From Watersipora subatra (taxonomy: Eukaryota; Bryozoa; Gymnolaemata; Cheilostomatida; Watersiporidae), in contig NC_088711.1 of the NCBI RefSeq assembly GCF_963576615.1, forward strand, positions 22,228,182-22,292,181: a stretch of DNA of 64,000 nucleotides, given 5' to 3'. Below, one piece after another: positions 6,401 through 30,286 of the stretch (its first letter is position 1; every line of letters begins with the position of its first letter). The position numbers and the translations under genes were made by a program. Under the pieces are notes generated by a model. That model saw nothing but the letters and a program-made list of their open reading frames with translations, was not told the DNA's origin and ran no database searches.

Positions 6401-9400
6401 CAGCTACTGACTCTCAGCTACTGACTCTCAGCTACTAAATCTTGGCTACTGACTCTCAGCATGCCTTGGATGCTAAGCTTATTGAATAAGCAAACTTCCT
6501 ACTGGCAGGTTTATGCAATACTTTAGTCAGTTTTATACAGAATTTTGCGTAAAAAGAGGCAGATACTATTTTGTTGTGTCTGTCTATGATATTGTAAAAG
6601 GAAGCTATGAGAAACAAAGTCATGTCTGTATGTAATCACTTGCTGCCTGATAAAGAGATGCATCTCGATTAAAATCTAATACTTATACAATCTAATTTAT
6701 AGAATTTATAGCGATTTAAAAGAGCTACTGTAACTTATTCCAAAAACCACATTGCTCTCTTTGGTGTGAGTTATGAAATAAAATTTAGAGCAGCTCACGG
6801 AAAGGGTCACAGAGAAAGTGTGAATAGTCCCAATATAGCACCCCTATTCATCCAGTGACAATGCTCTATCTCTGTTGCTCTCTTTCTCTCCCTCTATTTC
6901 TCTCTCTCTCTTCTCTCTATCTTTACCTCGCTATGTTTCTATTTTGCTATTACTCTATATCTCTATTTTGCTATTTTTCTATCTAGCTATCTTTCTATCT
7001 CAACCTCGCTATCTTTCTATTACTCTATCTTGCTATCTCTATATCTTGCTATCTCTATATCTCACTATTTCTCTATCTCGCATTTCTATACCTCTCTCAT
7101 CACTGGAAACATTGCCACTTTCATAAAGTTGTAAAGCAAACTAGATTTTAAACACTAGTTCTAATTATAAACAGTTCATTTTGGTTCAATCAGCGTAAGT
7201 TTAACTGCATGTTATTTTCGCAATAATAGTTTATATCACAGCAAAGTACAAAAACAATAAGGTTAATGGAAGTATATGGGCACCATCTTGGGCCCATTTA
7301 CACTTCCTCTGTAAAATTACTCTCTCTATGCATTGCTCTGGTGAAATAGTCTGATCTGAGAATCTTTTTTTAGAACTAGGGTTAGTGAGTTACTGTAACC
7401 CTAGTTTTAGTAGTTCTTAGTTTTCTCTCTTTAGGGTGTACAGAAGATTGAGGACTATGTTGAAGATGTTTCTGTAAAGTCTACTGTATGGTTGACAGCT
7501 GCTAAGGCTACGCTTCAGGTATTGAAGAGATACATAGATAATGGTCTCCAGTTCAACGGTATATCTGATTCTATCAAAGCTGGTAGGTAACCATGTTCAT
7601 GATCAGCAGTGTTTTCTCAGCTGTCCAGTTGATCAGACTGTAATGTTTCTCAGCTTCCTTTGCAGCTTTCTCTCACAATTACGGGATTCTTATATTTTGC
7701 TAAGTTGAATAAGCCAATAGGTGGAAGCATTTTATTCTGATAGGTTAAACATTGTATGGTACAGTTCCATAAATATGAAACAAAATTCTCATCATATGCT
7801 CTTGTGTTGAAGTCAGTATTGTTCATCAGCTGTTACAGATAACGACGATTAATAGTTTAAACCTTGAAGAGCCTGCATGGCTGCATTTGATAATGTGAAG
7901 TTTAAAGCATTTGTGGTTACCTGGTTAACAAAAGATATGTGCAATGGCAGAACAGACAGAACAGCTTCTTCTTACTAAGTTTATTTATAAAATAAAGTTG
8001 CCCACTACTTTTTGGGTGTGTAAAACTGAATGATAAGACAGTTCTTAATTTCATATTTATTAGCTAGTAGTGGGCAGTAGTTTGAGATCGATGCTTGATC
8101 TTTTTACCAAACTGTTACACAGTTTTGCTATGAAAGTTTTCTATACACAGATCACATTATTATATCCTAGTACCCTGGCAGTTTAGTGCGCTGTGAGAAA
8201 TAGTCAGGTGTAGTAACTAAACGTCGTAGAATTATCCCAGGTATCTAGTTGGTGCGGTTGTTAGGGTGTTGATGTGCTGTGCCGTAGTTGAGAGTTCGAA
8301 TCCTGCATAATGCAATCTTTTCTCCCAACCTGCAACTGTGGTTTCGTATGAACATGGCTCATATTATAGTAAAGATTGATTTGCTCATAGTTGCTTTTAA
8401 AAAGATTAACAGTGGCTTAAAGATTAATAGTGGCTTAACAATTTTATAGAAGACTAAATCTGAGTGTATCTGAGAGTTGTTCCTAGAGTTAGGACTTTGT
8501 TCCTGTTTCTACTCTTGCGAATAATGTCAACTCATTAAGCATGAGCCTCATTTAGCAATGGACGCTGGTTGCTCATTACTCTTACTGATGTTCTTAGCGC
8601 AGCGGATGGTCTCTGCAAGTCGGTTCTGTGTTCCATTACTTTCCAAGAAAAAGGAAATCATGGCAAGCAACTTGAAGACTGTGTCCAGTTCTCTCATTGA
8701 TGGACCACATGGCACCAAAAGGTTTATGAAGATGCTAAAAAGCCCGCTCTCCGCTTCTGCTGTCTCCATTTCTTCACTCTCTATTACTTCAAAGACATGG
8801 GAAGGTAACTCTTCTACTTGCTAAATATATTTTGATAGAATGAAGGTGAATCTAAGTTTTTTGTCATTTAATCAATGTTTACTGTTCTAGTCTACTGGTA
8901 TCTCACAATACACTGTGCTAATCATTGCATTCTGAGCTGCTCCATCATCTGCAATTTTGATAGATAGGAGAATGTAAATGGTAGAGGAGACAACTGCGTG
9001 CACATTGAAGTAGTAGCTATGCTTTCTTGTGCAACTTAAACGTTGACTTGCAACAAAATTCACATTACAGTTATTTGGTATCAAAAGATTCACTATGTTT
9101 TACTCTGCTGTGTTGTAGGTGCAAAATATGTGGAAATGTGATTACAAGCTCTTTAAAGCTCAACAACGAACAGTTAATCGCCGCCATCACGAGACCGCCG
9201 TAGGTTAGAATCTCTTTCCAAAACGACTCAAATGGGACGTAGTTGTACAAAATGGCTTCAGTTTACACTTTCACGCAACCTCATTCGTCAAAATATTTTT
9301 ACAAATATACATGTACTTCACACATTCACTAAAAACATGTCTATTGTTCTTACGCGTCTATTTTATCGTCATTGTAATGCTGTCACTTTCAACACTGATT

Positions 9401-12400
9401 TCCTATAACCTACCGTAAAAATTTGTTTAAATTTTCAACCTTAGCTCGAAGGAGTACATATCATTGTCTGATAAACATGACGAGCCTGTTGGTCACCTGT
9501 GATAATCGAAAAATGCTGCAGAAATTAATCACGAAGTATGGGTTACATGATCAGATTACGACTAGATGGTTAGACCAAGCCAAAACAAAACTGTAAAGTA
9601 GCGAGTATCCATATTTGATACAGGGTCTTTGGTAAAACCCGAAGTGTTTGTCATAAACTAGTGCTACGAAAAGTTTTATATTGAGCCTTTTATTGGCCTT
9701 TCAATATACGGGAGAACATCACGTGACTAAACAATAACCAAATGTAATGAATACGTCAAAGAAATAAACTGATTCCAATCTACAGCCACTTTTTCGTTTT
9801 TGAGCTTTTAAGAGCTTGTAATCAAATTTCCACATATTTTGCACCTACAACACAGCAGAGTAAGACAAGTGAATCTTTTGATACCAAATAACTGTAATGT
9901 GAATTTTGTTGCAAGTCAACCTTTAAGGAGGAGCTAGTCGATAGAGAAATAGAACTTAGGCGATTGCGGAGTGTTCAGAGGGGTTTGCGTGCTAAAGTAT
10001 TTAGTTTACCTAGAACCCAAGCAAGGATCACATGCAGACTAACTACTTGCTAAGCATGTCTCTATTGTTACTCAAACTCAAAGAGATGGCGTCTTTTTAT
10101 GCTCACATCTATCGTCAACTTATTACATTTTCTATTAGTCATTGCTGAATAAACTGCTTGACTTGGAAATTGATAGCTACAGCCGATTGCAAGTGAGTCT
10201 GGCGACAACTGGTGTCAGTAACATGTCGATTGTGTGACAGACAGTGTCAGTAACATGTCAGCTGCTACCGACAGGCAGTGTCAGTAACATGTCAGGTGTG
10301 AGACAGTGAGTGTCAGTAATGTCTCAACTGTGACAGACAGTGCCAGCAACATGTCAGCTGTGTGACAGACAGGGTCAGAAACATCTCAGCTATGTGACAC
10401 TCAGTGTCAGTAATGTGTCAACTGTGTGACAGACAGCGTTAGTATCAAAGGCTGGTAAATGCAATAAAGCTGAGATGTCATTCACAATTGTACATATCCT
10501 TTTAGAGCCTTTATTACTGCCCTGCATGCATCAATATAAGCAAGTTTGGAGGCATATTTTCAGCATGCGGCAAATAAGTTATGTCGTTATATTGTCAATT
10601 TCTTTTGTAAATCCTACTCAAGTTTTCATTTCCAGGTTTTTGTTGTGTACTGCAGCCACTCTAACAGAAATATCAAATGGGTGGGAGAAGTTTGTGATGC
10701 AGAGCGGTGTCAAGCTCTATGGCCTAATATCTACCCAATATACCAACGCTTGCCCTACTAAGAACCCTAATAGTGTTGTTGGGAAGCGCTCTGCATGTAA
10801 GGTCAGGAGAATGTTAATTATAATAAGCATGGGCCAGTTGTAAGAGTGGGCATGGTACATTTTCAAACCATAGCTAGACAGGTTCTGTAAAAGATAACAT
10901 TGCTGCTTCAACTGCCCAGCTGTATTTTTGCTTAGTTTAAATCTCAATATTTCTGTATCATAAACTTGCTGGACTGTATTGAACTAAACATACCTAGTTA
11001 TGCCATGCTGAACTTAAAGTTGAACCGACCACGAACCAATGACCAGTGCTAAGAGTTGTTATTCTGATACCACTGGTTCATTGCCTTTACTTAAGCCAAA
11101 GCAAACAGTAAAAATACTAATTATTGAACAGCTATTATAGTTCAGCACATCAAAGTTGAAAAGTATAAGTTTATTCTGCTACATGCCGTGTAATGTTCTT
11201 TAACAAGAGATATATTAATTTGATTCGTTCAGAAGTAAAATTTAACATATTGGTTTATTTTTTAGGCATTAAAGAAAGTACACATCTATTCTAAAATTGA
11301 ATATTTTGTCGAAGCTATGTTGTACCTAGTTTGCTTTGAAGGACTTCTTATCCACATATAATTTAGGAAGTCATGTTTTATTGTTCATGCTGGTGTAAAT
11401 TTTACTTAGAAGGGTTGGTACCAAGGTCATATATTGTCAACAAAGAACTACCTTTTTATTTATTTTTTCCGCTAAAATAGGATTTTGTGCCCATGTTTTA
11501 TAATTTGTTAAAGGGTAATATGTAAATTCAAGAACTCCGACTATGAATTTTTGAAATGGAAAAATCATTTCATATATTTACATTACCAGAAATTTACGCA
11601 TGTTTGCTTCCAATTACATTTTAACAGATTTTACTGAAAATGATAGCAAGTATAGTCAGTTGTGAGCTCTGTGAACATTGAAATGTTTTAAAAATTAAAT
11701 GAGTTACTCTCAGGAGCAGCAGGCATTACCAAGTCTCAATTCTCTGTCAATACACAGATAAAGGAGTTAGACTTGGTAGTGGAATGTCCATATAGAGTTA
11801 GTATCAAGTTAACCTCCAGGCTAGTGTTTGTGGAATCATACACAAGTCACTAGGAAATCTGGATAAACTGGATTTGGAAATGTGCTATTGTTCACACACA
11901 CATTCTCCTAAAAACTAAAAGGTACGTCTTAGTTTAATCACAGCTAGCTAAAACTACTCCTTGCTGTTTATCTGTAACTGATTTATTGAATGAGTGTTGT
12001 TTGTCGCTGTTATAGTACCTTAAATGGCTTTAAGCTTTTGAGACAGCTAAGCTTCGCACTTAGTTTGTGCCTGACTCTAATAGCAATGACCTGCTTGCTA
12101 AAGTTTCCGGTTTTTCATTTAATATAACAGAAAATCCATTTGTATTTATAATCAAGCATAGAAATCAATGCTAACGCTTTTGTTAAGGTTTACCTGTAGT
12201 TGAGAAATAGTCAGTAAGCTGTTTATCTATAATTTAGATAAACAGTTATTAGAATTCATAAATTCGGCCTTTGAATTTTTAGCGTTTTTCTGTTATTTCT
12301 GTGAATTTGTTTACTTAATCGTGCAGCCGTTTGTTATTAAGCTCATAAGCAGAGAATACCATTCCTGTACCCATTAAACTACAATACAAGTGTGTAGCAG

Positions 12401-15192
12401 ATATCAGATATACAAGTACTTTATCTGGCAAATTATGTACAGGGTAGCAATCATTTAGCGGTGGTTAGAACAGCTCTATGGGTTGTTTTATTGGTTATTT
12501 GAGAGACATCGACAATAGTACAGATGAAGTGAGACTAAAAACCACCATTTTATAAATAGTGCCTTAAAAAAGATTGTTTAAAGTAAATGTAGATGCATTA
12601 TAAGACGCAATACAATATACACAAAGAATCAAAATGCAGTTTTGAAATTAGCTACTAATAATCTCCAACTAGCTCCAGATAATTGCTGGAATATTATATA
12701 AATTTAATAAAATACATGTTTTTTGTCTCTTGTTCCTGTGACTTGTAATGACTCTGTCCTTTATCCAATAGTTTGGTTGCGTTTTACCTTGACCTGTTGA
12801 GATATATTATCTGCTGTCGTACAGGAAGAAGGTGATCTAGACTTCTTTGACATGGTGCTAAGAATTGGTGAAAATGATGCCAAAAGAGACATGCGCAAGT
12901 TTCTTGAAGACAATGGAGTAGCTTCTAATACCTTCAAATGGACGAGTTGTGAGTGGAGAATTCAATTACTCTCATTGCTTGGTTAGACAGTGAGTGGTAT
13001 AATGGCAGGGCTCAACCTCTCCAGTTTGTTACCTTTATTAAATTCTTATAGCATCTACTTAGTCTCAGAGTCATCATTTTGACAATGGTCAGTAATTAGT
13101 AAAAGTTGACCTAGTAGTCCACAATAATTTACATACAGTCAGTAGTCTTTGGTCAGTACTCCACAGTAGTCTATGATCAGTACCCCACAGTAGTTTATGG
13201 TCAGTACTCCACAGTAGTTTATAGTCAGTACTCCACAGTAGTCTATGATCAGTAGTTCACGGTAGTTTCTAGTCAGTAGTCCATAGTAGTTTATGGTCAG
13301 TACTCCACAGTAGTTTATGGTCAGTACTCCACAGTAGTTTATGGTCAGTAGTCCACAGTAGTTTATGGTCAGTACTCCACAGTATATGGTCAGTACTCCA
13401 CAGTAGTTTATGGTCAGTAGTCCACAGTAGTTTATGGTCAGTACTCCACAGTATATGGTCAGTACTCCACAGTAGTTTATAGTCAGTAGTCCACAGTAGT
13501 TTATAGTCAGTAGTCCACAGTAGTCTATGGTCAGTAATCCACAGTCGTCTATGATCAGTACTCCACAGTAGTCTATGGTCAGTACTCCACAGTAGTCTAT
13601 GTTTAGTACTCCACAATAGTTTATGGTCAGTAGTCCACAGTAGTTTATGATCAGTAGTCCACGGTAGTCTATGGTCAGTACTCCACAGTAGTCTATGATC
13701 AGTACTCCACAGTAGTTTATGGTCGGTACTCCACAGTAGTTTATAGTCAGTAGTCCACAGTAGTCTATGGTCAGTAATCCACAGTTGTCTATGGTCAGTA
13801 CTCCACAGTAGTTTATGGTCGTTACTTCACCGTAGTTTATGGTCTGTAGTCCACAGTAGTTTATAGTCAGTATTTCGCACTAGTTTATGGTCAGTAGTCC
13901 ACCATAGTTTATAGTCAGTAGTCCACAGTAGTTTATGGTCAGTATTTCAAAGTAGTTTATGGTCAGTACTCCACAGTAGTTTATGGTCAGTATTCTATAA
14001 TAGTTTATGGTCAGTACTCCACAGTAGTTTATAGTCAGTAGTCCACAGTAGTTTATGGTCAGTATTTCAAAGTAGTTTATGGTCAGTACTCCACAGTAGT
14101 TTATGGTCAGTATTCTATAATAGTTTATGGTCAGTACTCCACAGTAGTTTATAGTCAGTAGTCCACAGTAGTTTATGATCAGTACTCCACAGTAGTCTAT
14201 GGTCAGTACTCCACAGTAGTTTATGGTCAGTACACCACAGTAGTCTATGGTCGGTACTCCACAGTAGTTTAGGATCAGTAGTCCACAGTAGTCTATGGTC
14301 AGTACTCCACAGTAGTTTATAGTCAGTACTCCACAGTAGTCTATGGTCGTTACTCCACAGTAGGTTATGGTCAATACTCCACAGTAGTTTATAGTCAGTA
14401 GGCCCTACTAGTTTATGGTCAGTACTCCACAGTAGTTTATGGTCAATACTCCACAGTAGTTTATAGTCAGTAGGCCCTACTAGTTTATGGTCAGTACTCC
14501 ACAGTAGTTTATGGTCAGTAGACTTTCAGCCAGCACAATGTAAGGGTTGTCATTACTCCGCTATTCATTACCTTCCCTTAGTCACTGTATTCTCATATAT
14601 AAATTTTACAGTTGATTTTCAAGAAAGAATTTACTAATAATGCATCTTTTCATTTACAGTTGTTGGTCTTTTTATTCATCCTCCTATCTACTGTGAAACG
14701 TTCCATTTCATTACAATATTATAAATGTGCAGATAGACTGGTGCTGTACTTGTTTCTAGTCATTTGTTTCTTTTTGTGTTTTAAGGTGACGACTGTAGGA
14801 TTTACTGTAAGGCTTTTAATTGCGCCTCTAACACCAGTGTAAATGAGTCTACAGAAAGCAAGACATCCATATCTTATCCCAACATTTATCAGCTGTCTAG
14901 CTAGCACTAAAAGACTTGGTCAATCAAATGCAGCACTTTCTTTAAAATAAACAACTGTTTCATTGTAGATAAAAACAAACTGGCTAGTATCTTGGGAGAC
15001 TTTGAGGGAATACCGAAATCTATAGCAGACTCGGACCTTGCCAGCCCGGCATCACTCAAACAACTCCAGGATGTATTCAAGAACCAGCAACTTTTCCAGA
15101 GCTGTGTACGCCAGTTGTCAGCAATGATAGACGCTGCCTGCTACAGAACCTCTACTCCTGATGAGTCAAAAGTCAGCGCTCTCACGTGCTGA
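437..15192 (+). CDS. Gene A: secreted WSC-domain protein, 5' end outside the window
   Basis: Assembled from exons at 437-569, 756-907, about 2133-2268, 3025-3231, 4122-4273, 7435-7582, 8598-8804, 10656-10801, 12825-12948 and 14969-15192 (TGA stop). The first exon is the second half of a WSC domain (CVCGSERAYQQLG). The next two form a complete WSC domain with the hallmark GGALANSVYST. WSC domains are Cys-rich putative carbohydrate-binding modules of secreted and surface proteins. The remaining seven exons encode a mainly helical C-terminal region with a few conserved Cys that I do not recognise; the last residue before the stop is Cys. Exon lengths and phases match gene B exon by exon (207/207, 148/148, 124/124 and 224/224 nt). 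The signal peptide and first half-WSC exon must lie to the left. The third exon lacks an in-frame acceptor at the expected place (see findings). The exon chain is well supported; the function is inferred only as extracellular. Confidence 0.8.
2518..2775 (+). repeat. CT-rich microsatellite in gene A intron 3
   Basis: Imperfect (CT)n/(CTTT)n tract on the plus strand. It produces a spurious Ser/Leu-rich open frame. It lies 250-500 bp upstream of the acceptor of the exon at 3025. Confidence 0.95.
4296..6465 (+). repeat. 14-bp minisatellite (CTACTGACTCTCAG) filling gene A intron 5
   Basis: About 2.2 kb of an imperfect 14-bp unit, roughly 150 copies, beginning within 25 bp of the exon donor at 4274. 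The unit joins a branch-point-like CTGAC to an acceptor-like CTCAG. Variants lose TCTC (ACTCAACTACTG) or change the last bases (CTCAA, CTCAT). A 606-bp higher-order duplication is visible through the rare variant GACTTTCAGCAACTGAC at 5111 and 5717. The matching intron of gene B (24632-25366) has no such array. Confidence 0.97.
6866..7095 (+). repeat. Degenerate CT/CTAT simple repeat in gene A intron 5
   Basis: Pyrimidine-rich sequence with recurring CTCTATCT and CTTGCTATCT words. It ends about 340 bp before the acceptor of the exon at 7435. The open frame across it is a composition artefact. Confidence 0.85.
8170..8380 (+). mobile_element. tRNA-derived SINE in gene A intron 6
   Basis: Pol III-type internal promoter parts are visible: an A-box-like TAGTTGGTGCGGTTG near 8245 and a near-consensus B box GAGTTCGAATCC at 8292-8303, followed by a non-tRNA tail. 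It resembles the element at 23520-23745, including CTGGCAGTTTAGTGCG versus CTGGCAGTTCCGTGCG at the left edge and TATAGTAAAGA at the right. Confidence 0.65.
9040..9922. mobile_element. Foldback DNA element (long TIR, TTAA-flanked) in gene A intron 7
   Basis: An 883-bp element flanked by TTAA at 9036-9039 and 9923-9926. The ends are inverted copies of more than 100 bp: GTTGACTTGCAACAAAATT on the left and AATTTTGTTGCAAGTCAAC on the right. It has no intact transposase frame, so it is non-autonomous. It is related along its length to 18779-19686. TTAA targets suggest a piggyBac-type mobiliser, but the ends lack the usual CCC. Confidence 0.8.
10195..10445 (+). repeat. 34-36-bp minisatellite upstream of a gene A exon
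   Basis: About seven diverged copies built on GACAGACAGTGTCAGTAACATGTCAGCTGTG-like words, with GTGTCAGTAACATGTC as the most constant part. It lies in intron 7, 210 bp before the acceptor at 10655. Confidence 0.85.
13085..14520 (+). repeat. 24-bp minisatellite in the last intron of gene A
   Basis: Roughly 58 imperfect copies of a 24-bp unit (TAGTTTATGGTCAGTA plus CTCCACAG). The unit is eight codons long, which creates long spurious minus-strand frames rich in LLWSTDHK or INYCGVLT. A 120-bp higher-order duplication containing AGTATTTCAAAGTAG and TATTCTATAATAG is seen at 13928-14047 and 14048-14167. Gene B has no array in the matching intron. Confidence 0.95.
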
Positions 15193-18371: not shown

Positions 18372-21300
18372 ATGTACCGTTCAGACATCTATTTCCTGTT
18401 CTTCCTCCTTGCCAGCATTCAAGGTTAGTATTTTCTTACTAATTGAAAGGTAGCAATGCAGACTCATGATTCTGGTGTAGATGCTGGCATAGCAGTCTGT
18501 TCGTCTGCAGATTCATGACTCTGGTGTGGATGTTGCTACAACGGTCTGTACACCTGCAGACTGACTCATGATTCTGGTGTGAATATTGGTACAACAGTCT
18601 GTACACCTGCAGACTTACTCATGATTCTGGTGTGGATGCTGGCATAGCAGTCTGTACGCCTGCAGACTCAAGACTCTGGTGTGGTTGTTGCCACAACAGT
18701 CTATCTGTCTACTTGAATATACAAGATATTTTGATGTTTTTATTCGTATATAGTAACATTTTTAAGCAGTGACTTTAAAGGTTGATTTGCAACAAAATTT
18801 ACATTACAGTTATTTGGTATCAAAAGGTTACCCATGTCTTACTCTGCTGTGTGGTAGGTGCAAAATATGTAGAAATGTGATTACAAGCTCTTAAAAGCTC
18901 AAACACTAGCAGTTAATCAGAGCCATCACGAAAATGCCTTAGGTTGGAATCCCTTTATTTCGATGACGTACTCAACTCAAAGTAATTATTGTTGTGACAC
19001 GTGATGATATCACGTAAATTGAAAGGCCAATAAAAGGCTCAATATAAACTGTCTTCTAGCACTAGTTTATGACAAACACTTCCGGTTTTACCGAAAAGCC
19101 CTTATCAAATATAAATGCTCACTACTTTTCAGTTTCGTTTCAGCTAGGTCTAATCATCTAGGCGTAATTTGATCATGTGACCCATACTTCTTGCCAAATG
19201 GCTCGAACAATTTCTGCAGCATTTTTCGACTATCACATGTGACCAACAGGCTCCTCATGTTTATCAGAGAATGATATGCACTCTTTCGAGCTAAGATTAA
19301 AAAATTAAAATAATTTTAGGCTAGGTTTTGAGATATCAGTGCTCAAAGTGACAGCATTACAATGATGATGAAATAGATGCGTAAGGACAATAGACATGGT
19401 TTTTTTAATGTGTGAAGTATATTTGTGAAAATATTTCGACGAATGAGCTTGCATGAAAGTGTAAACAGAAGCACATCTGTTCAACTACGTTCCATTTGAT
19501 CCGTTTTTGAGAGGGATTCCAACTTGCGGCGTTTTTGTGATGACTGCAATTAACTGTTCGTTTTTGAGCTTTTAAGAGCTTGTAATCATATTTCCAAATA
19601 TTTGCACCTACAACACAACAGAGTAAAACATGGTGAATCTTTTGATACCAAATAACTGTAATATGAATTTTGTTGCAAGTCAACCTTCAAGGTTTCACTT
19701 CATAATAAGGTCAATAGGCTCCCGGAGCCCATAAAATCAGAAGGGCATAGCAGTCGACTGAATAGTTTTGGTCATCAGTTATGTAATAGTAGAACTAATA
19801 TATGTAGTGAGAACTGTTAACAGTGTTGTTACTATGTTCTTATTCAACAGAAGTGCGTAGCAGGACATTCTCTGGTTGCTTCATGCAGCCAGCCAATGCT
19901 ACAAAACATCCTCATACATCCTCCCTTGGCTTTGGCTATAAGATTGGCTTGAGTGTCGGCCATGACACTGTTCAGAAATGCATCGATCACTGCACTCTCG
20001 AGTCGATAAAATACGCAGTTGTTGAAACAGTGAGTCCTATCTAAAATATATTTCTCTAGCTGATATAAGGACATATATATTTTTTATAAACTAATATATT
20101 ACCCATCTCATTGATAAAACTTTGGCTTCTACAACAATAATACAGCAAGTTCTTATGAGTAGATGGCAGTTGATAAATTTTAGTTGACCAAAAATCTCTT
20201 ACCGCTGTTATTGCCACGTGGAGAACTGTCCACTCAACTACGAGCAGTTCACAGTATGTACCATTCTGACATTTATTACATGTTCTTATTTGCTAGCATT
20301 CAAGGTTAGTATTTTTTCACTAGTTGAAAGCTAGCAATGAGGACTTATGACTCTGTTGAGGATGTTGGCACCGCAGTCTGTACGTCTGCAGACATTGATA
20401 TATACCTAACTACTATCCTAACAGAAATAGCAAGCGGATATGAGTATAGCTATTCACTCTTTGGACGATTGCTCTGTTATGACCGATTATACAAGAGCAG
20501 TGATAATTGCCATCCTATATTATTATCAGCATACAGTTATTATATAAGCAGTAAAAATGCTATTTTGAAGTTTCTTCCTGTGACTTTTATAGTTCATCAT
20601 CTTTTAGTATGCAATGATGATTATTTTCCAGGAAGGAACGGAGTTATTTTGCTATTGTGGTTCTGAGAGAGCATTTAAGAGATTGGGGACACCGTTTGCT
20701 ATAGACCCTAGTACTCCCTGCCACAATAGCCTCTGGTCTTTAATTACTTATGTAGCTCAAGGTTAGTCGTTTGCTATAGACCCTTGTACTCCCTGTCACA
20801 ATAGCCTCTGGTCTTTAATTACTTATGTAGCTACCGGTTAGTCGTTTGCTATAGACCCTAGTACTCCCTGCTACAATAGCCTCTGGTCTTTAATTACTTA
20901 TGTAGCTCAAGGTTGGTGAAAACGATTGGATTAGATTTTATTATGTGTTGAGATTTCTTAGATGTCTTGCGGATAGACCTCTTTTCTGTTGAATTCATAG
21001 TGAGTCTGTGGTGTGGTATAACTGATGTAGTGTTTTATTCAATGCTTTTGTGCCTATATCCGGACTGTTACATCTGAAGGTGAGGGCATGCAAGTAAAAA
21101 TAGCTTGTCATCATTTGCTACAGGCGATGTTAGCTCGCAGTATATTGGCTGCTACAATGAAGTCTCTGACCCATTAAACATGGCTTCAAATGCGAACAAA
21201 TGGATAGATTGGTGGGATATGTCACCCGCCAAATGTATCAATTACTGTGCCCTGAATGGAGCATCATACGCAAACCTTAGAGTGAGTCGTTTTCTCTTTT

Positions 21301-24300
21301 ATTTTATGTAGAATTGGAAAGGAAATAACAGCAAAGCGAAGGGCTGCTGTCTTGGATTGTTTGACATACGCATTGTACATTCATATTTGTGTATGCCAAG
21401 TTTGTGAAGATAGATATTCGTAAGAAGAGGTATACAGAATCTGAGATGGAGCCAGCAACCATGTTTTATGTTATTTCTTTGCCAGCAACTTTGCAACTTT
21501 TGTGGTTATCTCTTTCTATTTTTTACCGGTAACTTACTACAGCATATGAGGTTCTGTGTGTTTTTTCTTGATGAGAAACTGCCATTTGGTCTCAGAGGTT
21601 TATAATGATAGCCTTGAAGCGCTCAGGTCATAGATGTCAAGGTCAGAGCGTGGCTCGATGCCAAACTCACTCGATGTGGTTATTTCAGTTATGTATCTGC
21701 CTTGATACTTTTCTTGCAGTGCCATATGATATTTTGAGTTAACAAGACATTAACGATAGACGCAGTCTACAATTTAGAAAACATACCTAAAAGCTTTTAT
21801 GTTTATCATAAATTACTTTAGACCCTCATTTTTCTTGTCATAAAACCTGTCGGTGGGCATATTTGACTGTTTACTCAAAGACACAATTATTCTCTTGTTA
21901 AAAACTTTATATCTCAGCCAATAAACTTGAGGGAATCTCATACAACTTTAATGAAAATATTTTCATAAAACTCATTTTAATGTTCTTGAGTTGTGAGCAC
22001 TGAATATCAGTCAGTACCAGAGTTTCAGTTTAGACCCAGGTTTCATTACAAAAACACAAGTTAAGAGAAGTGACTTTAATTTCTTGTGATATATAGAGAC
22101 CGCTATCGTTAGAGAATCTCTTCTATTGTAGGAAGGAGACGCGTGTACATGTGGATACAGTTATGCTAAGCATGGCCAGGCAGCAGAGGCTTCTTGTGAT
22201 ACGCCATGCACCGGCAGCGCTGGAGAGAGGTGTGGAGGGGCTTTAGTCAACTCTGTATATTCCACCCTTGGTATGTATTTATTTGCACATTATCAAACAC
22301 TAATCTTGTCTATTTGTCTTATCATAAAGATTAGGCAAACAAGTGAAAAGTGCAAAAGAAAGAACAAAGTTTCAGTATAAAAGGAAATTAGCTTATAAAA
22401 GAAACATGGGGACACAATTACAGAAGGTTGGAAAAAACAAAGAACGAGTTATAACAGAATAATTAAGCAAAACAGAAAAAATGGAAAAAATAGATTGAAG
22501 AAAATGCTTTCTTAATTGGTGATTAATTTCTTAATTGTTGATTGACATTCATCAGATGTGAACCGCAATATCTGGCTTTTATGATTTTATCTGCAGCGTA
22601 ATTGTTTGGGCATTCAGCTCTGTGTTTCCTTAAATTATGTTCCGTAATACATTTTTCATTAACATGAAACCTTCGCTTCTGTTGAAACACCCACAGAAGA
22701 GGCAAGTTCATTGCTCAGATGTAATATGTAAATTGCTTGTCTCATATAAATCATAGTTCAGCATTTCAGGAAATCACGGTTCAGCATTCTAGGAAGTCAC
22801 AGTTCAGCGTTTCAAGAAATCCTTAAACCTGTCATGGGTTTTTTTGCCTGAAAAACCTATTCGGACAGCACTCAAAGCATTGTTTTTGCATGCAGTTATA
22901 TGACTGGCCTTAAACGCATGGAACAGCCTTAAAGCCTTAGATAAGATGAGGAAGAGATAATCATCCGAAAGACGTTGTTAGTAAAAATTCAATACTCGTA
23001 TGTCCATTTCCAGATTTGTTAAAGAACCATTATATACACGTCATATTTGTATTTCTTGTGCAGGTCAAGCTGACGCAGTAATGAATCACACTGCACCCAT
23101 CATCCTGAAATCCCAGACATTCCCAGCAGTCCTTGTCCCTCAGACTCAGGAGCTCATGCAAAAAATGCTGAGTATCCAGGAAGAGGTCAAGCTCAAGCTG
23201 CCAATCAAAGACATTGAGATTTTAAAGCAACATTTAGACATGGCAAGCGGATTTATCCAATACATTTTGGGTGAGTTTTTCAGTCCTTGATATCTCCACA
23301 GCACAGAGTTTGCAACAATGATAAATCTTTTGCTTTGAGGCCATCACTAAGCATTTAGCTGGGTGTCTAACCGCAGTTTGTTGTACTGTACAGTTTAGAT
23401 GCTTTTCATAAAAAATTATTTCTATGAATTCATCCAATCTGTCCGAGTTCTGGCATAGCACACATGGGCGAAGTATTAACTAGACCGCGCCCATAGTTTT
23501 GTGTTTTTTACTAATATGCTGGCAGTTCCGTGCGCCATGAGAGTTTGCCATGTGTAATAACTGTGTGCATAATTATTCCATGATGCAGTTAGGTGATCGA
23601 GTGATGCAGTTGGCAGAGCACCTAGTTGGGAATCTGGATATTCGGGTCTGGTTCCTGTGTGTCGCAATCTTTTTTTCTAACACTCTTAGAGAGACTTCGG
23701 ACAGATGGACGGACGGACATACATTTTACTATAGTAAAGACTAGATGAATGTCCGGCTTTGCAAGAGTATTAAAAACAGCTTACAAAGAGTGGCAGATAA
23801 TGTAGTTGCCATTGGCTCATTTGAGTAAGCAAGTATACACATTGCTAAACCTTCTAATAAGAACTGTGAGAGCAAGCTTTAGTGATGTTGCATGTAACGC
23901 AGAGTCACTATGCGTATTTTAACCCAGATAATGATTCATATCGTCTAATGAATCCATTGCAACTCATGCAGCCTAATGGGTTAGCTCATTGCCTTGTGAA
24001 CGGGAGGTTTAGAGATCAAATCTTGTGCGATATGGATTTTTTATTGCCAGATTTTCGTCGCTATCGCCGGACAAACACCAAACGATGATAGACGACGAAG
24101 ACAACTTTTTGAGGTTTATATATATATAGATTATTATATTGAGGTGTATGAAGAATTTCACTGCCGATCAGGTTACCTTGCTATCACCACAAAAAGCAAC
24201 AACTATATTTCATGTTTTAAAAATTTTTTTAAAGTTGACCAGTGATAACTCATTAAGTCTTTCAGGTTTTTTACCCTGATTACCCATCTATAATTCAAGC

Positions 24301-27300
24301 CAATAAGTGTTTGATAAGGTTTACACGCAATTTTGCTCTATTATGCAACATTTACGGAAGATGTTAGAGCTTTCCTCTTATGTACCGGCTGATGTAAAAT
24401 TTATTTCCTATTGTTTGTGTCATTTGTTGTTTGAAGTTACCTCGCGAGCATAAAACACAGTATCCTAGCCGTTTACTGTTTGTAGATATGCAGGCGCCTC
24501 TGAATGCGATGCAGACTGCAGTTGGTTTATCTCTCTCTAGCGAAGTGAAATCATGGCTGCCACAGCAGTTTCCAAAAGAACTACAGCAATTTGTCGATGT
24601 AGTGAAACGGTCACAAACATTTATGAACACAGTGAGTATACATACAAACATTACAGTCAGAAGTTATGAGACCATCTCACATTTTAAGAGACAAATGCCG
24701 GTAGTGATGATTTACTGCCTTAATTTTACTAGAAACCACCACAAACCATATATATACCATAAGATGCAAAATTCTCTAACAATTAATATGGAGCAAGTTT
24801 CTAACAAGCAGCGACTGGCAATGAATTTTTTCAATGAAATTGCGGATGTAACTGACCTTGACAAAAACTAAAAGGTACCCAGTCAATGTGCATTGTATTA
24901 TCAACTAATTAATTTTGTAATACTATTACAACATAATTTGAACATCTTTTGTAACAATTGGTGGCCCTGAAAAGGGCATTGGGGTGTGTAAAGTGGCTAA
25001 ATATAATGTGACACTGATTCCATCACCTCTGCTATAAAATGAGCTGAAAGGCTTCTGCTTTATTTTGCTAGAATAGAGAGAGATTTCTGCATTTAATGAT
25101 GTACAATATGTGGTGATTACAGGATTAAAATTGCACCAGCAAGGGTGCCGAGATGAACGACGGTGTGAATTATTGGGTGGTCTCACAATTTCTGACAGCA
25201 CTATCTTAGATTGAAACCACAAACTTAGAATCTTCTAGAAAGTTTAAAATCAAACTGATATTTATAAAAGTTAGTGTTATAATGTTATCTACTGTTATAA
25301 CACGTACTGTAGTTAATGATCAGTTCAACAACATTTCTTTGCCATGGACTGTCCTGACTATTGCAGAATGTTGCACAAGTGACAAACTTCGTCAATCAAT
25401 TTAGTGCAAATGGACCTCAGCTTAAAGTCGCTATCAGTCAAGGTCTTCTCTCACTTAATAGCTATATCAGTTATGGAATACTGTCGGAAGGTATCGATCG
25501 GACATACAAACTAGGCAAGTCTGCATATTTTTAAAAGCCAATTTCCAAAATGAAGCTCATCTATTAATTGGCATTTTTAGTTGGACTGCTCCGATCACGG
25601 GTTCTCTACGCTACTTTTTAGTTGGGCTGCTCCGATCACGGGTTCTCTAAGCTACCTTTTTAATTGGATCGCTCCGATCACGGGTTCTCTAAACTACCTT
25701 TTTAGTTGGATCGCTCCAATCACAGGTTTTCTACACTACCTTTTTAGTTAGACTGCTCCGATCACGAGTTCTCTAAGCTACCATTTTCGTTGGATCGCTC
25801 TGATCACGGGTTCTCTAAGCTACCTTTTTAGTTGGACTGCTCCGATCACAGGTTCTCTAAGCTACCTTTTTAATTGGATCGCTCCGATCACAGATTTTCT
25901 TCGCTACCTTTTTAGCGTTAGGTTTCTAAGCAACCATTTTAGTTGGATCGCTCCGATCACGGGTTCTCTAAGCTACCTTTTTAGTTGGATAGCTCAGACC
26001 ACGGGGTTTCTAAGCTACCTTTTAGACCCTCTTTAAAGGTAGATTGTTTGTTTTTCAACAGCCCGAGTACACTTGACGGTTGCAGTCCTGTAACAGAAGA
26101 AATTTGGTTTGCGTTAGATATTTCCTATAACCTAACTACATACGTACAATTTTCATGTACCGACTAGGTAGGGAGTGAAAGTTAACCCTGACTCTTACAT
26201 TACATAGAATCGGGGTTAACCATTGCTAGCTGCTCCATTATTTCTACTTATTTAATTAAGGAAGTTACAGTTGCTAGGAGTATACAGCTGTATATATAGG
26301 GCTGCTGATACAGCTGTATACATAGGGCTGCTAATACAGTTGTATATATAGGGCTGCTATTACAGCTATATATATATATACATGTATATATATATATATA
26401 TAAATTGTTTCTTTTTTTGAAAAATTGTTTCCATATACTATATAGAGCTGCTAATAGAGCTGTATATATAGGGCTGCTGATACAGCTGTAAATATAGGGC
26501 TGCTGATACAGCTGTATATATATAGCTGTTAATACAGCTGTATATAGTTGTAACGCTGAAGATTACTTATTGTATTACTGAGTTACCTGCTGAATTACTT
26601 GTTGTAGCGACACAAATGGTTTCTTCTAGTCGTACCTGCCTTCCTTTGCTGACGAGCAACAAGAATGTCATGGTTCAGAACTTCGAAGAAGCTGCTGTAG
26701 CATTGATGACAGTGCCTGGCGGTATCGACCAATACCTAGAGAACATTCGAAAACCATATTCCACTTCTGCAGCAGCATATGCTAAAAGGCCCCATGTCGA
26801 CCCTGCAACTTGGAGAAGTCAGTCTGGTTACTGCTATCCCTGATATTTCCTTTCATGTTCCATCTATATATATATGTATAAATCTTAGTGTTTATCTTTT
26901 GGTTAAACCCTGTCTACAGTTATAGCAATTAAAATTTAGCAATGAAAAGTTCGCACGGCACCGGATTTGATCTCAGGACCTCCAAGTCTAGAGGGGCGAA
27001 GTTAATCGTTAAGTGACATGATCTACAATGGATTTATTGGGCAAATAGTCATTACATGGATGCTCACGCTTGAAGTGCGTGCTTGTGGTTAATAATTAGC
27101 TCTGTTGACCAGTATGCGTAACGATTGTTAAACTGGTCCAAAACGCTGGTATTGTTTTAGTAAAGACTTTAGTAAAGATCTAGCTTTCCAGGTGAGCTAC
27201 TCAAACTTATTAGGCAACTAGCTGTGTTTCCCGGCGTTGCCCACATATTGAAAATCACCTTATTAACAGTGAAAAGTAATGAGAGTTGCGTGCCACTTGC

Positions 27301-30286
27301 TATTAGCCTGGCACATTGCCAATGGAAAATTTGAGTACACTTAATAATGAGAGCTACCAGCTTTTCGTGATGTTATGCTATGACCCCGCGTAGTACGCAA
27401 AGCCATTTAGGTATTTGTTCTCATATAGCGACATATATTAGCTAGCAAACAAATCAATGTATGTTGCCTAATTGGTATGGCGCCGGACTTGCGAGCGGAA
27501 GGGTCCGAAATCAAATATTCTTCTATGTAGATTCTTTATTCCAAGATTTTAATAGCTATAGCCGGAATGCAAACAGATTCACATACAACACACATACTTT
27601 GAGAAATATATACATGTATATAGATTATTCTATTGTCCATGCAACGCTGGATATTCGGCTAGTTGTGTATATAGCTTGTCTGATTATCTGAGGTGATATA
27701 TACTATTCAAAGGTGTATTTCACACACTGATTTGCACGTTATTATAACATTTGTTATATTTAATATGCTCAACATCAATTACATATATAGAAGCTTGCTG
27801 TCTTTTGAAGTTAATTTTTAAAAAACCACAATTCAACCAAACTAACAGTTGATAAAATAAAATAAATAAATTTAGCTATAGCCAATGTAAGAATGCCAGT
27901 AGTTGTCATATTGACCAACTGACTGTTCAACAGAAAGTCTTAAAGAGATTACTACAGGATGGCAGTCATTTATGGTTGGAAATGGTGTCAAGTTGAATAA
28001 ACTGCTGCACAGCCGCTACGCCCAGACATGCTCTAATGCTGTAGTAGGGAGAAGATCAGCCTGTCAGGTACACAATCTCTTTTCTTTTTCATATACTATT
28101 CTCAGATTTACAATGATTGGAAATTCTGCAGAGCTTCTGTAATGAAACTTGAGAAGGTTCTTGTATGTAGTGTGTATATGTATGTCTAAAGAGCAGCTGG
28201 TGTATCTGCTACTAGCACAAATAGGAAATACAGGAGCCTAACCTTAGCAGTGACTGAACGATTGCAGACAGGTACTACCTAACCTTAGCAGTGACTGAAT
28301 GATTGCAGACAGGTACTACCTAACCTTAGCAGTGACTGAATGCTTGGATGCAGGTACAAACTAACCTTAGCAGTGACTGAGTGATTGCAGGCAGGTACTA
28401 CCTAACCTTAGCGGTGACTGTATGATTGCAGGTAGGTACAACCTAACCTTAGTAGTGACTGTATCATTGCAGACAGGTACTACCTAACCTTAGCAGTGAC
28501 TGTACGATTGCAGGTAGGTACTACCTAACCTTAGCAATGACTGAATGATTGCAGGCAGGTACTACCTAACCTTAGCGGTGGCTGTATGATTGCAGACAGG
28601 TACTACCTAACCTTAGCAGTGACTGAATGATTACAGGCAGGTACTACCTAACCTTAGCAGTGACTGTATGATTGCAGAGAGGTACTACCTAACCTTAGCA
28701 GTGACTGAATGATTGCAGACAGGTACTACCTAACCTTAGCAGTGACTGTATGATTGCAGGCAGGTACTACCTAACCTTAGCAGTGACTGAATGATTACAG
28801 GCAGGTACTACCTAACCTTAGCAGTGACTGTATGATTGCGGAGAGGTACTACCTAACCTTAGCAGTGACTGAATGATTGCAGACAGGTACTACCTAACCT
28901 TAGCAGTGACTGTATGATTGCAGGCAGGTACTACCTAACCTTAGCAGTGACTGAATGATTGCAGGCAGATACTACCTAACCTTAGCGGTGACTGTATGAT
29001 TGCAGGTAGGTACCACCTAACCTTAGCAGTGACTGTATGATTGCAGACAGGTACCACCTAACCTTAGCAGTGACTGATTGATTGCAGGCAGGTACTACCT
29101 AACCTTAGCAGTGACTGAATGATTGCAGACAGGTACTACCTAACCTTAGCAGTGACTGTATGATTGCAAGTTGGTACTACCTAACCTTAGCAGTGACTGA
29201 ATGATTGCAGGCAGGTACTAGAGTCAGCTTACTAGAGATGCTTAAGACACCCGGTGACAATAAGGCTAAGCAGCAGGTTCGGATTTTCGTGGAAAAGAAC
29301 CGAGAAGCTTTTGCTGCTTTTGATTGGTCTCAATGTATGTATTTTTAATTTAATGTATTTGTAGTTTATGTGTCATAACAATTGGTTATTAATTTGATTT
29401 TTGTAATGTTACTATGTAGAAGGGTTTATGTATTTCTCGGTTTCTTTATTGTGACAGTAATTAAAATTTAAGTAATGATTTTTGCCTCCATGCAAAAATC
29501 ATTACTTTTCCGGAAGCAAAAGTATTGATTTTTGCCTCCGGAAGGCTATGTGCTGCCGTTACAAAGTTACTATACTGCACAACTTTATAAACTATACTAT
29601 CTTTCTTAAATGAATATTATATTGTATTTATATCATATTGTGTGAAGTAGTATATATTTTTTAATGTTTTAATTCATAAGCTAGTTAACGCCATTTATAT
29701 ATTTTTAACCGGGTGTGTATAATTGTTTTGATTATTTAAACAGAGACATTAACCACAGTTAAGGAGATTATATAGAATAACAAAAAATGCTTGATGCAAT
29801 ATTTTATAAGACTTTCTTGGGATTATTTGCAAACATGGTTTTGGGAAACGTATTTTTTATTTGCAAAATGCTTACTTTTCTCAACTTTTTAAATAGTCTG
29901 TATTTAGTTGGTGCAGTTAATTGTATTCAGGTTATCACTTCGTAAACTTGCAGGACAAGCCAACACTTGTATACGATATATAAAACTCATGGCTTATATA
30001 ATTTTGTGCAATAACTTTTAACATATATGATTCCCATATCAGCTAACTAGTTTTAATTTCAGATGAGAAGAAGATGTCTGCCATCTATAAAGACATGCAA
30101 TTGATACAAAACTACCTTGTATCTGCTCATGTCTCCTCGAAGTCCTCCATTGACGAGCTTGTTACGACAGCTACAAGTTTCAAGTATTATCAGAGTTGTG
30201 TGGCAGATCTCTCCGCTCTTATTCGCAGCGTCTGCCACACGGCCTCCGCCCCGATTCCTTCCAATGTTGTACCTCTTCAATGCTGA
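18372..30286 (+). CDS. Gene B: secreted protein with two WSC domains, complete tandem paralog of gene A
   Basis: Twelve exons: 18372-18423, 19851-20029, 20632-20761, 21124-21281, 22132-22270, 23064-23270, 24486-24631, 25367-25514, 26608-26817, 27934-28067, 29211-29334 and 30063-30286. They sum to 1851 nt, exactly 616 codons plus stop. Exon 1 encodes a short hydrophobic signal peptide (MYRSDIYFLFFLLASIQ). Exons 2-3 form WSC domain 1 (about residues 22-120) and exons 4-5 WSC domain 2 (about 122-220) with eight Cys and GGALVNSVYST. Exons 6-12 (about 221-616) encode a helix-rich region with sparse conserved Cys and no domain I can name. Introns between modules are phase 1 and those inside modules mostly phase 0, as in shuffled extracellular modules. 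Intron 8 has a GC donor (AG|GCAAGT at 25515). Neighbouring gene A is a tandem duplicate. The protein is probably secreted; its ligand is unknown. Confidence 0.85.
18458..18725 (+). repeat. 49-53-bp minisatellite in gene B intron 1
   Basis: Five copies with the core GATTCTGGTGTGGATGCTGG and CAGTCTGTACGCCTGCAGAC; the TCTGGTG word recurs at 18471, 18520, 18573, 18626 and 18675. A single further unit follows the duplicated signal-peptide exon at 20340-20390. Confidence 0.9.
18779..19686. mobile_element. Foldback DNA element (long TIR) in gene B intron 1
   Basis: A 908-bp relative of 9040-9922 with the same inverted ends, flanked by TTAA on the left (18775-18778) and TCAA on the right (19687-19690), consistent with one substitution in the target duplication. 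Its internal sequence (TTTCTGCAGCATTTTTCGA near 19210) matches 9040-9922 in the opposite orientation. It is non-autonomous. Confidence 0.8.
20221..20394 (+). other. Duplicated signal-peptide exon of gene B, inside intron 2
   Basis: This segment repeats 18336-18510 with roughly 80-85% identity by eye: 5' UTR, start codon, signal peptide, donor and the first part of intron 1 with one minisatellite unit. The copy has an ATG at 20256, encodes MYHSDIYYMFLFASIQ and ends at 20304 with the donor CAAG|GTTAGT, so the frame and donor are intact although one codon was lost. It lies between the two halves of WSC domain 1. Its phase-1 donor cannot join exon 3 (phase 0) but can join exon 4 (phase 1), which would give a form lacking WSC domain 1. 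Whether it is transcribed is unknown. Confidence 0.75.
20694..20918 (+). repeat. 75-bp triplicated tail and donor of gene B exon 3
   Basis: Three head-to-tail copies start at 20694, 20769 and 20844. Each holds the last 68 bases of exon 3 followed by a donor: GTTAGT at 20762, GTTAGT at 20837 and GTTGGT at 20912. The unit is 25 codons long, so the frame persists, but each exon-donor junction reads as an in-frame TAG (CAA G|GT TAG). Only the first donor therefore gives a full-length product. Confidence 0.9.
23520..23745 (+). mobile_element. tRNA-derived SINE in gene B intron 6
   Basis: The tRNA-like head contains GATGCAGTTGGCAGAGCACC near 23600 (A box) and TCGGGTCTGGTTCCTG near 23642 (B box). 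A T-run and tail follow with GACGGACGGACATAC and ending TATAGTAAAGACT. It is related to 8170-8380. Confidence 0.65.
23940..24080 (+). mobile_element. Degenerate tRNA-like SINE
   Basis: TAATGGGTTAGCTCATTGCC near 23973 (A-box-like) and GTTTAGAGATCAAATC near 24007 (B-box-like), then CGTCGCTATCGCCGGAC. The order is the same as at 27462-27560, which has TAATTGGTATGGCGCCGG, GGTCCGAAATCAAAT and AGCTATAGCCGGA. Confidence 0.5.
25575..26020 (+). repeat. 42-bp minisatellite in gene B intron 8
   Basis: About eleven copies, core CTCCGATCACGGGTTCTCTA followed by AGCTACCTTTTTAGTTGGA, period 41-42 bp, ending about 590 bp before the acceptor at 26607. Confidence 0.95.
26268..26545 (+). repeat. 26-27-bp minisatellite in gene B intron 8
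   Basis: About nine copies of ACAGCTGTATATATAGGGCT plus GCTGAT, interrupted near 26370-26440 by TATA-rich sequence. Confidence 0.9.
26905..27020 (-). mobile_element. tRNA-derived SINE, minus strand
   Basis: CCGGATTTGATCTCAGGACC at 26961 is a reversed B box. Upstream is AGTTATAGCAATTAAAATTT, the reversed tail word shared with the elements at 60910 and 63255. Confidence 0.55.
27462..27560 (+). mobile_element. Degenerate tRNA-like SINE
   Basis: Same layout as 23940-24080: TAATTGGTATGGCGCCGG as A-box region, GGGTCCGAAATCAAAT as B-box region, then ATAGCTATAGCCGGAATGC. Confidence 0.5.
28237..29217 (+). repeat. 41-bp minisatellite made of splice acceptors, gene B intron 10
   Basis: Twenty-four units at a strict 41-bp period. 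Each carries CTAAC (ideal branch-point core), about 20 bases, then GATTGCAG or a close variant and (G/A)CAGGTACT. The last unit is the genuine acceptor: GATTGCAG ends at 29210 and exon 11 starts with GCAGGTACT at 29211. The array is thus a serial copy of the 3' splice site plus the first nine exon bases. Some units also make a strong donor (CAG|GTAGGT). The matching intron of gene A has no array. Confidence 0.95.
29471..29506. repeat. Perfect 15-bp hairpin with a sister hairpin at 29508-29543
   Basis: AGTAATGATTTTTGC at 29471-29485 pairs with 29492-29506 around the loop CTCCAT. Immediately after, CCGGAAGCAAAA pairs with TTTTGCCTCCGG. Both share the word TTTTTGCCTCC. Confidence 0.85.

Follow-up and report, generated by a model that had tools for sequence, protein, structure and literature searches.

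Mirage minisatellites were reportedly first described in amphioxus, in the original report of Canestro et al. 2002 (NAR 30:2871). In the available part of PMC3087553, these arrays are found at both boundary types, covering an intron's 3′ end in BflGb6 and an exon's 3′ boundary in BflGb9, and RT-PCR suggests that splicing is undisturbed. The human ABCA7 intron 18 VNTR, as presented in the excerpted text of PMC5954066, has a 25-bp unit with 23.7 copies in the reference and contains a working splice site. When its second copy is used, one unit is retained and the frame shifts; the resulting isoform accounts for approximately 2% and is unchanged by array length.

The array analyzed here lies in a gene of the bryozoan Watersipora subatra (gene A), within a window of 64,000 nucleotides, the whole stretch of DNA that was studied, and it belongs to this known kind of mirage minisatellites and splice-site VNTRs. 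As in the amphioxus mirages BflGb6, BflGb9, and Adh3, its units cross an intron–exon boundary and have an intron part and an exon part each (here 31 and 10 nt), and many of them carry AG/GT signals. The authentic copy of the amphioxus mirages appears in the transcript; its predicted counterpart here, the boundary copy, is unit 24. The array has 24 copies compared with 6 and 3 in the two haplotypes of BflGb6, and a unit of 41 bp compared with 150–160 bp in the amphioxus globin mirages and 10–72 bp in Adh3 (PMC3087553, available part). As in the ABCA7 VNTR, the functional site is predicted within the terminal unit, and a 75-bp × 3 array of gene A also holds a donor. The ABCA7 VNTR, however, is on the donor side, and both its length polymorphism and its effect on splicing have been measured, as stated in the excerpt of PMC5954066.

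Almost all units of this intragenic array carry AG|GT, which also recalls the dual-specific sites of UBC and VCX3A. According to the accessible text of PMC10809524, the introns concerned in those genes have both ends within the array and a length that is a multiple of the unit, whereas the donor of gene A lies outside the array and its intron is no multiple of 41. CAG|GTAGGT in three units and AG|GT at positions 34–37 in 22 units are likewise similar to the ratchet points of recursive splicing, but those are described, in the portion of PMC8605326 at hand, in long Drosophila introns, and the gene A sites are candidates. Among the matches listed in a literature search there was no acceptor array of 20-odd copies, and the nearest to a survey, from what its available part covers, was PMC10809524. 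The array of gene A sets more than 20 near-identical acceptors before a single exon as a natural ladder, and the tandem paralog (gene P), which has no array there, serves as a control. The ladder and the paralog can test how the spliceosome chooses among equal sites, whether by taking the first copy (intron definition), by taking the last copy (exon definition), or in steps.

Structure of the array and position of the acceptor

The features of the locus are listed in Table 1. Gene A encodes a WSC domain in two stretches (E value, 4.8e-19), and all 20 internal boundaries across its 11 exons are in phase. A candidate exon reading QCMLPNWYGAG (27446 on) is an interspersed repeat, with 146 of 150 scored matches outside gene A, and was removed from the gene model. 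A comparison of exon F with the Protein Data Bank returned four matches, the best at an E value of 0.82 (NCBD), which were discarded as chance.

Table 1. Positions of genes, exons, and repeat features in the window.
Feature	Position	Strand	Description
Gene P, tandem paralog of gene A	437..15192	+	E, F, and G are exact; the starts of several others may be off by a few bases
Gene P counterpart of exon F	12825..12948	+	124 nt; acceptor GTCGTACAG|GAAGAA
Gene A	19851..30286	+	11 exons identified; open frame of 590 aa from 19853; model partial at 5′ end
Second splice-site array in gene A	20693..20914	+	75 bp × 3.0 over donor of WSC exon
Exon E (upstream of array)	27958..28067	+	ends CAG|GTACAC; phase 0
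41-bp × 24.0 array	28237..29220	+	from TRF and per-unit content
Internal block duplication, units 10–13 to units 14–17	28606–28769 to 28770–28933	+	
Unit 24	29180..29220	+	identical to consensus; predicted real acceptor (AG ends 29210) and first 10 nt of exon
Exon F (exon 11 of the first-pass annotation)	29211..29334	+	124 nt; entry phase 0, exit phase 1; donor GTATGT
Exon G (last coding exon)	30063..30286	+	stop TGA; 224 nt, same in paralog

TRF analysis gave a period of 41 and 24.0 copies, with 90% matches and 0% indels, and the locus was the sole match in the 784-Mb assembly in a genome search that passes over simple repeats and words of very high frequency. Each 41-bp unit joins 31 nt of intron end, which hold a CTAAC branch-point-like motif, CTTAG, CAG, and GATTGCAG, to 10 nt of exon start, which read GCAGGTACTA in the consensus. 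CTAAC is present in 24/24 units, and an AG occupies unit positions 30–31 (AG31) in 21 of them; units 3, 15, and 23 are without it, although the sequence of unit 23 has an AG shifted one base downstream. The first-pass annotation had counted 24 acceptors at a 41-bp period; the period and copy number were borne out, and the acceptors amount to 21 in register and one shifted. Its description of the unit as the real 3′ splice site with the start of the exon agrees with these counts. A further AG is found at positions 34–35 (AG35) in 23/24 units, AGGT at positions 34–37 in 22/24, and ATTGCAG in 19/24, and CAG|GTAGGT, which had been noted for some units, occurs in three (5, 7, and 19). The motif control covered 30 arrays (60 strand-units; period 20–100, at least 3 copies) in the window and in a 200-kb sample, and the 41-bp array alone (1/30) combined CTRAY..YAG and AGGT in its unit. 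Units 10–13 differ from units 14–17 at 0, 1, 0, and 0 positions.

In the per-unit comparison of the 24 units, the acceptor AG was not better kept than other unit positions, being lost in three, and no selection on the decoy acceptors was seen. The sole long invariant run consists of 10 positions holding CTAACCTTAG that do not vary in the 24 units (P 0.015–0.034, post hoc), and this might hint at selection. The predicted RNA structure of the unit was not more stable than that of shuffled sequences on either strand (five folds, z -0.26 to 0.05).

Between 28101 and 29261 there are 111 AGs, and the frame is open to the end of exon F only from those at 29210, 29235, 29237, and 29246; no AG of units 1–23 gives such a frame. 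The AG at 29235 is out of phase with exon F, and use of 29237 or 29246 would lose 9 or 12 residues that are present in the paralog. Exons D–G of genes A and P share 32% identity over 230 aa (E value, 3e-43), and the alignment is gap-free from SAC(Q/K) through exons F and G, including the E–F junction. Because the paralog exon also measures 124 nt, has the same phase, and aligns without gaps over the junction, reading phase and paralog alignment place the real acceptor at 29210, in unit 24, the copy adjoining the body of exon F. Exon G is also equal in length in the two genes (224 nt). A start of exon F downstream at 29237, which would leave the array wholly intronic, is in phase and open, but its acceptor context is GAG, and the exact 124-nt length of the paralog exon with its gap-free alignment from 29211 ruled out this acceptor, so that such a start has next to no likelihood. 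The earlier claim that only the last copy adjoins the exon is therefore upheld, and the check on an exon start elsewhere again points to 29211.

Origin and use of the copies

The exon F acceptor of gene P is single-copy and ordinary, and no tandem repeat lies over it. Since the paralog acceptor is single-copy and unit 24 matches the consensus exactly, the array most likely originated from the splice site itself, as first proposed. It would have started in gene A by tandem copying of the end of intron 9 (its last 31 nt) together with the 10 nt that open the following exon, most simply after gene A split from its tandem paralog, but an older array may instead have been lost from gene P. Slippage or unequal exchange probably raised the number to 24 copies, together with duplications of whole blocks, such as that of units 10–13 into units 14–17.

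It is likely that the array is a tolerated mirage whose last copy is picked by exon definition. The motifs of the unit persist in the upstream copies, but most splicing probably bypasses these copies in favor of the acceptor at 29210. Exon definition is expected for exon F because its flanking introns measure 1143 nt (intron 9) and 728 nt, and it would favor the acceptor closest to the exon's own donor. This exon-centric proximity rule is stated for both sites, with the detail given for donors, in the available part of PMC9225289. An AG that lies closer than 12–15 nt to the branch point can be passed over (PMC1431707); the CTTAG and CAG of the unit, at +6 and +9 from its branch point, are consistent with this. 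Among the ten introns of gene A, which were compared directly, the intron 9 acceptor has the lowest pyrimidine count (7/17), and the exon E donor, GTACAC, is the sole one without G at +5, so the site may be leaky. The intact AG31 sites upstream of unit 24 all meet TAA at codon 5 (20/20), supplied by the CTAAC of the next unit, and the upstream AG35 sites all meet TGA or TAA within 31 codons (22/22). In-frame TAA or TAG had been predicted for upstream use; stops do follow, as TAA or, from AG35, also TGA, but TAG was never the stop from either kind of site. Splicing that leaks to an upstream copy would therefore reach a stop at codon 5, and the transcript would presumably undergo nonsense-mediated decay.

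A rather unlikely alternative to tolerance is that the decoys sequester splicing factors or divert splicing, with array length determining what fraction of the mRNA is productive or how often exon F is skipped, as with the VNTR in human ABCA7. The retention of the acceptor AG in register by 21/24 units, the stops that follow upstream use, and the frameshift that skipping of the 124-nt exon F would cause are all in keeping with such a rheostat, and for the 25-bp ABCA7 VNTR, which takes in the donor of exon 18, a correlation with skipping of exon 19 is reported in the excerpt of PMC5954066. However, the same excerpt gives ABCA7 single-unit retention as invariant with length, amphioxus mirages reportedly keep regular splicing (PMC3087553, available part), and the splice elements of gene A are no better kept than other positions (AG31 lost in 3/24). 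Similar arrays also recur in the W. subatra genome, including in conserved kinase genes, which points to tolerance. A special role is thus argued against by the richness of the genome in minisatellites, the similar arrays at other splice sites, a count of gene A boundaries inside arrays that is below what random placement of its own arrays would give, and an AG that is not specially kept.

Stepwise (recursive) splicing, in which the AG|GT of a unit would serve first as acceptor and then as donor, so that the intron is removed in steps and decoy use corrects itself, is quite improbable. Human UBC is one of the tandem repeats in which dual-specific sites are used, and ratchet points are juxtaposed AG|GT, as far as the available parts of PMC10809524 and PMC8605326, respectively, describe them. 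The AGGT of 22/24 units and the CAG|GTAGGT of units 5, 7, and 19 would suit such a process, and the regenerated donor CAG|GTACTA is like the CAG|GTACAC of exon E. The 1143 nt of intron 9, however, equal 27.9 × 41, no multiple of the unit, and thus do not fit the UBC pattern. One step of 41 nt would also be too short for the usual minimum size of animal introns, which exceeds 41 nt.

The distance from the exon E donor to the unit 1 acceptor is 200 nt; the accessible text of PMC9225289 gives this range for intron definition with use of the first acceptor, and this counts against exon definition. If the first copy were used by intron definition across these 200 nt, the exon would span the array and most gene A mRNA would be truncated and decayed, as in a damaged duplicate; intron-defined introns do favor the upstream acceptor (PMC9225289, same portion). 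Nevertheless, gene A retains a 590-aa open frame with phase-matched exons, and its last exons align with the paralog to the last residue, unlike a gene long inactivated, which makes this reading very unlikely.

Splice-site arrays elsewhere in the genome

Tandem repeats make up 13.2% of the 200-kb sample. In gene A, 2/21 boundaries lie inside arrays, compared with 0/17 in gene P, and random placement of the six arrays of gene A covered a mean of 3.6 boundaries, more than the 2 observed. The WSC exon in the 75-bp array ends at 20761 with CAAG|GTTAGT, and reading into the next copies leads to TAG. Thirty kinase exons were picked by hand from 142 domain matches; all are free of stops, their matches begin and end inside the domain, and the exon ends were inferred by reading. 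Arrays were close to an end in 5/30 and covered the splice site in two (L052 and L054), so that 2/60 ends, in STK11-like and MAP3K2-like exons, lie inside arrays; the arrays near the ends of the other three (L040, L060, and L067) were read as not covering the splice site. This small kinase sample suggests that a few per cent of the W. subatra splice sites carry such arrays. The STK11-like and MAP3K2-like cases bear on repeat tolerance within genes and on the proposal that such duplications give rise to new introns.

Extrapolation from 2/60 kinase ends and 2/21 gene A ends would yield thousands of splice sites with ladders of near-identical competing sites. It is unlikely that minisatellites routinely seed at splice sites in this way, that the ladders poison themselves, and that array length is a heritable, fast-changing dial on gene output. 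Self-poisoning is suggested by the copied motif often supplying an in-frame stop (TAA in CTAAC, TAG in GTTAGT), but in the MAP3K2-like case the copied splice motif supplies none. If array length were such a dial, the 24-step acceptor ladder of gene A would be its clearest case.

Gene model and composition of the array

Assembly of exons by splice sites and phase gave a model of gene A, the WSC-domain gene that carries the array, with 11 exons from 19851 to 30286 (+) and a partial 5′ end. Reading from 19853, 590 residues are stop-free across 20 internal boundaries, and the spliced protein matches the WSC domain (Pfam; E value, 4.8e-19) and Kremen in the PDB (best E value, 8.1e-07). The array lies in intron 9, between exons E and F, and loss of exon F from the mRNA would break the frame.

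Exons around the array in gene A (window coordinates) and kinase exons with an array over a splice site (coordinates within genomic pieces L052 and L054)
Feature	Location	Strand	Array	Remark
Exon E	27958–28067	+		ends in phase 0
Exon F	29211–29334	+		124 nt
Exon G	30063–30286	+		stop TGA
STK11-like exon, putative acceptor + 18 nt exon	L052 348–531		58 bp × 3.2	PDB STK11, E value 3.6e-29
MAP3K2-like exon, putative donor	L054 278–575	minus-strand gene	111 bp × 2.7	PDB MAP3K2, E value 1.6e-33

Tandem repeat analysis (TRF) placed the array at 28237–29220, with a period of 41, 24.0 copies, 90% matches and 0% indels. Within the assembly (784 Mb, 239 contigs), it was the sole match found in a search that passed over simple repeats and very common words; the GC content is 36%. 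For unit comparison, the array was divided into 41-mers, the consensus of which is CCTAACCTTAGCAGTGACTGAATGATTGCAGGCAGGTACTA. The first-pass annotation of 24 acceptors held for copy number and period, but the acceptor AG (positions 30–31) is present in only 21/24 units. The branch-point motif CTAAC that it assigned to each unit is unbroken in all 24, and the CAG|GTAGGT that it saw in some units occurs in units 5, 7, and 19; overall, the observation was confirmed with small corrections. A second AG (positions 34–35) and a GT (positions 36–37) are each found in 23/24 units, and AGGT at positions 34–37 in 22/24. The borders are abrupt, with the adjacent 41-mers agreeing with the consensus at only 8/41 and 7/41 positions, and unit 24, which adjoins exon F, is the consensus exactly. 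Units 10–13 recur as units 14–17 with 0, 1, 0, and 0 differences, a block duplication. Positions 2–11 (CTAACCTTAG) are invariant across the 24 copies (P 0.015–0.034, post hoc), and a search of the unit for RNA structure gave nothing notable.

Other repeats were seen in gene A. A 42-bp intronic array (25574–26025) has a unit, GCTACCTTTTTAG, that resembles a 3′ splice site by eye, with a better pyrimidine tract than that of the real intron 9 acceptor. Intron 7 has an apparent GC donor at 25514 (CTAG|GCAAGT). The segment at 27446–27570, which reads QCMLPNWYGAG... and is readily mistaken for an exon, is an interspersed repeat with at least 146 further genome matches. An inverted repeat seen by eye at 29461–29545 (AGTAATGATTTTTGCCTCC ... 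CAAAAATCATTACT) is perhaps a short mobile-element remnant.

Exon F acceptor and its paralogous counterpart

A whole-genome search with exons E, F, and G as the query returned, besides gene A, two weak matches (E values, 0.0075 and 0.187), both within the window and both belonging to gene P, a tandem paralog at about 437–15192 with WSC-like exons in the same order. Exons D–G of the two genes share 32% identity over 230 residues (E value, 3e-43), and the alignment is gapless from SAC(Q/K) across exons F and G. Exon F has 124 nt and equal phases in both genes (12/41 residues identical) and exon G has 224 nt in both; several other gene P exon starts are only approximate, by a few bases. Since exon F agrees in length and phases and the alignment is gapless, comparison with gene P fixes the predicted exon F acceptor at 29210, where the first-pass annotation had put it. 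The gene P acceptor, GTCGTACAG|GAAGAA, is single copy, with no repeat over it. The earlier proposal that the array spread from the splice site itself is well supported.

A 14-bp array of 158 copies (4274–6460) begins 11 nt past a gene P donor. The donor region and the 14-bp unit have TCAGTTA in common, so this array may have been seeded at that donor.

Outcome and choice of acceptor

When each AG in 28101–29261 (n = 111) was tried as the acceptor after exon E, only 29210, 29235, 29237, and 29246 gave a stop-free path to the end of exon F, and 29235 is out of phase. The intact upstream AGs at positions 30–31 all meet TAA at codon 5 (20/20), which is part of the following unit's CTAAC, and those at positions 34–35 all meet TGA or TAA within 31 codons (22/22). 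The expectation that upstream acceptors would bring TAA or TAG into frame was thus borne out for stops in general, but these are TAA or TGA, with no TAG. Unit 24's own competitor (29214) leads to TAG at codon 7.

The introns flanking exon F are 1143 and 728 nt long. Exon definition favours the acceptor nearest the exon's donor, and intron definition the first (PMC9225289, where the detail concerns donors). The last array copy is expected to win over the upstream copies as the acceptor. Against this choice, however, just 200 nt separate the exon E donor from the first copy, the intron 9 pyrimidine tract is the weakest among the ten introns of gene A, and the intron 9 donor is the only one of the ten without G at +5. 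AGs as close to the branch A as those at +6 and +9 can be bypassed (PMC1431707). Stepwise splicing through the array is unlikely; it is considered because AG|GT sites are present within the units, but the length of intron 9 is no multiple of 41.

Precedents and base rate of splice-site arrays

Mirage minisatellites of amphioxus have been proposed to take part in intron gain (PMC3087553). In human ABCA7, a 25-bp VNTR takes in the exon 18 donor, and its length is reported to track exon 19 skipping, with one-unit retention of about 2% independent of VNTR length (PMC5954066). Dual-specific sites within tandem repeats are described for UBC and VCX3A (PMC10809524). The array's kind is therefore already known, and the array is a new, large case of it.

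Repeats made up 13.2% of a 200-kb sample (twenty evenly spaced 10-kb pieces of the contig that holds the array) vs. 11.4% of the window, and the sample held 21 arrays with a period of 20–100 and at least 5 copies. Boundaries inside arrays numbered 2/21 in gene A and 0/17 in gene P, and each gene has one further boundary that lies no more than 20 nt from an array. Random placement of gene A's six arrays, exons not being spared, covered a mean of 3.6 boundaries, and at least 2 in 95% of trials. The second gene A case (75 bp × 3, 20693–20914) spans a WSC-exon donor, and continued reading from it leads to TAG; the corresponding gene P donor is single, TATG|GTGAGT. On the base rate of such arrays, the hypothesis of regulation by copy number is not favoured.

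For an outside base rate, 30 of 142 kinase-domain matches were hand-picked without looking at repeats, each stop-free and with both match ends within the domain. TRF found arrays close to an exon end in 5/30 picks. Judged by reading, arrays lie over the splice site at 2/60 exon ends (L052 and L054) and beside it in L040, L060, and L067. Continued reading from the STK11-like decoys leads to TAG. The MAP3K2-like decoys would add 37 codons per unit, stop-free within the piece read, so longer in-frame isoforms of that gene are possible. CTRAY..YAG and AGGT occur together in 1/60 strand-units from 30 arrays of the window and the 200-kb sample, that of the 41-bp array, which is unusual in this combination within one unit and in copy number. 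In L040, a 57-bp intronic array of 7.1 copies (63–447) lies about 50 nt upstream of the kinase exon match, and its units carry TTGTAG|GTAGAG, which resembles a dual-specific site.
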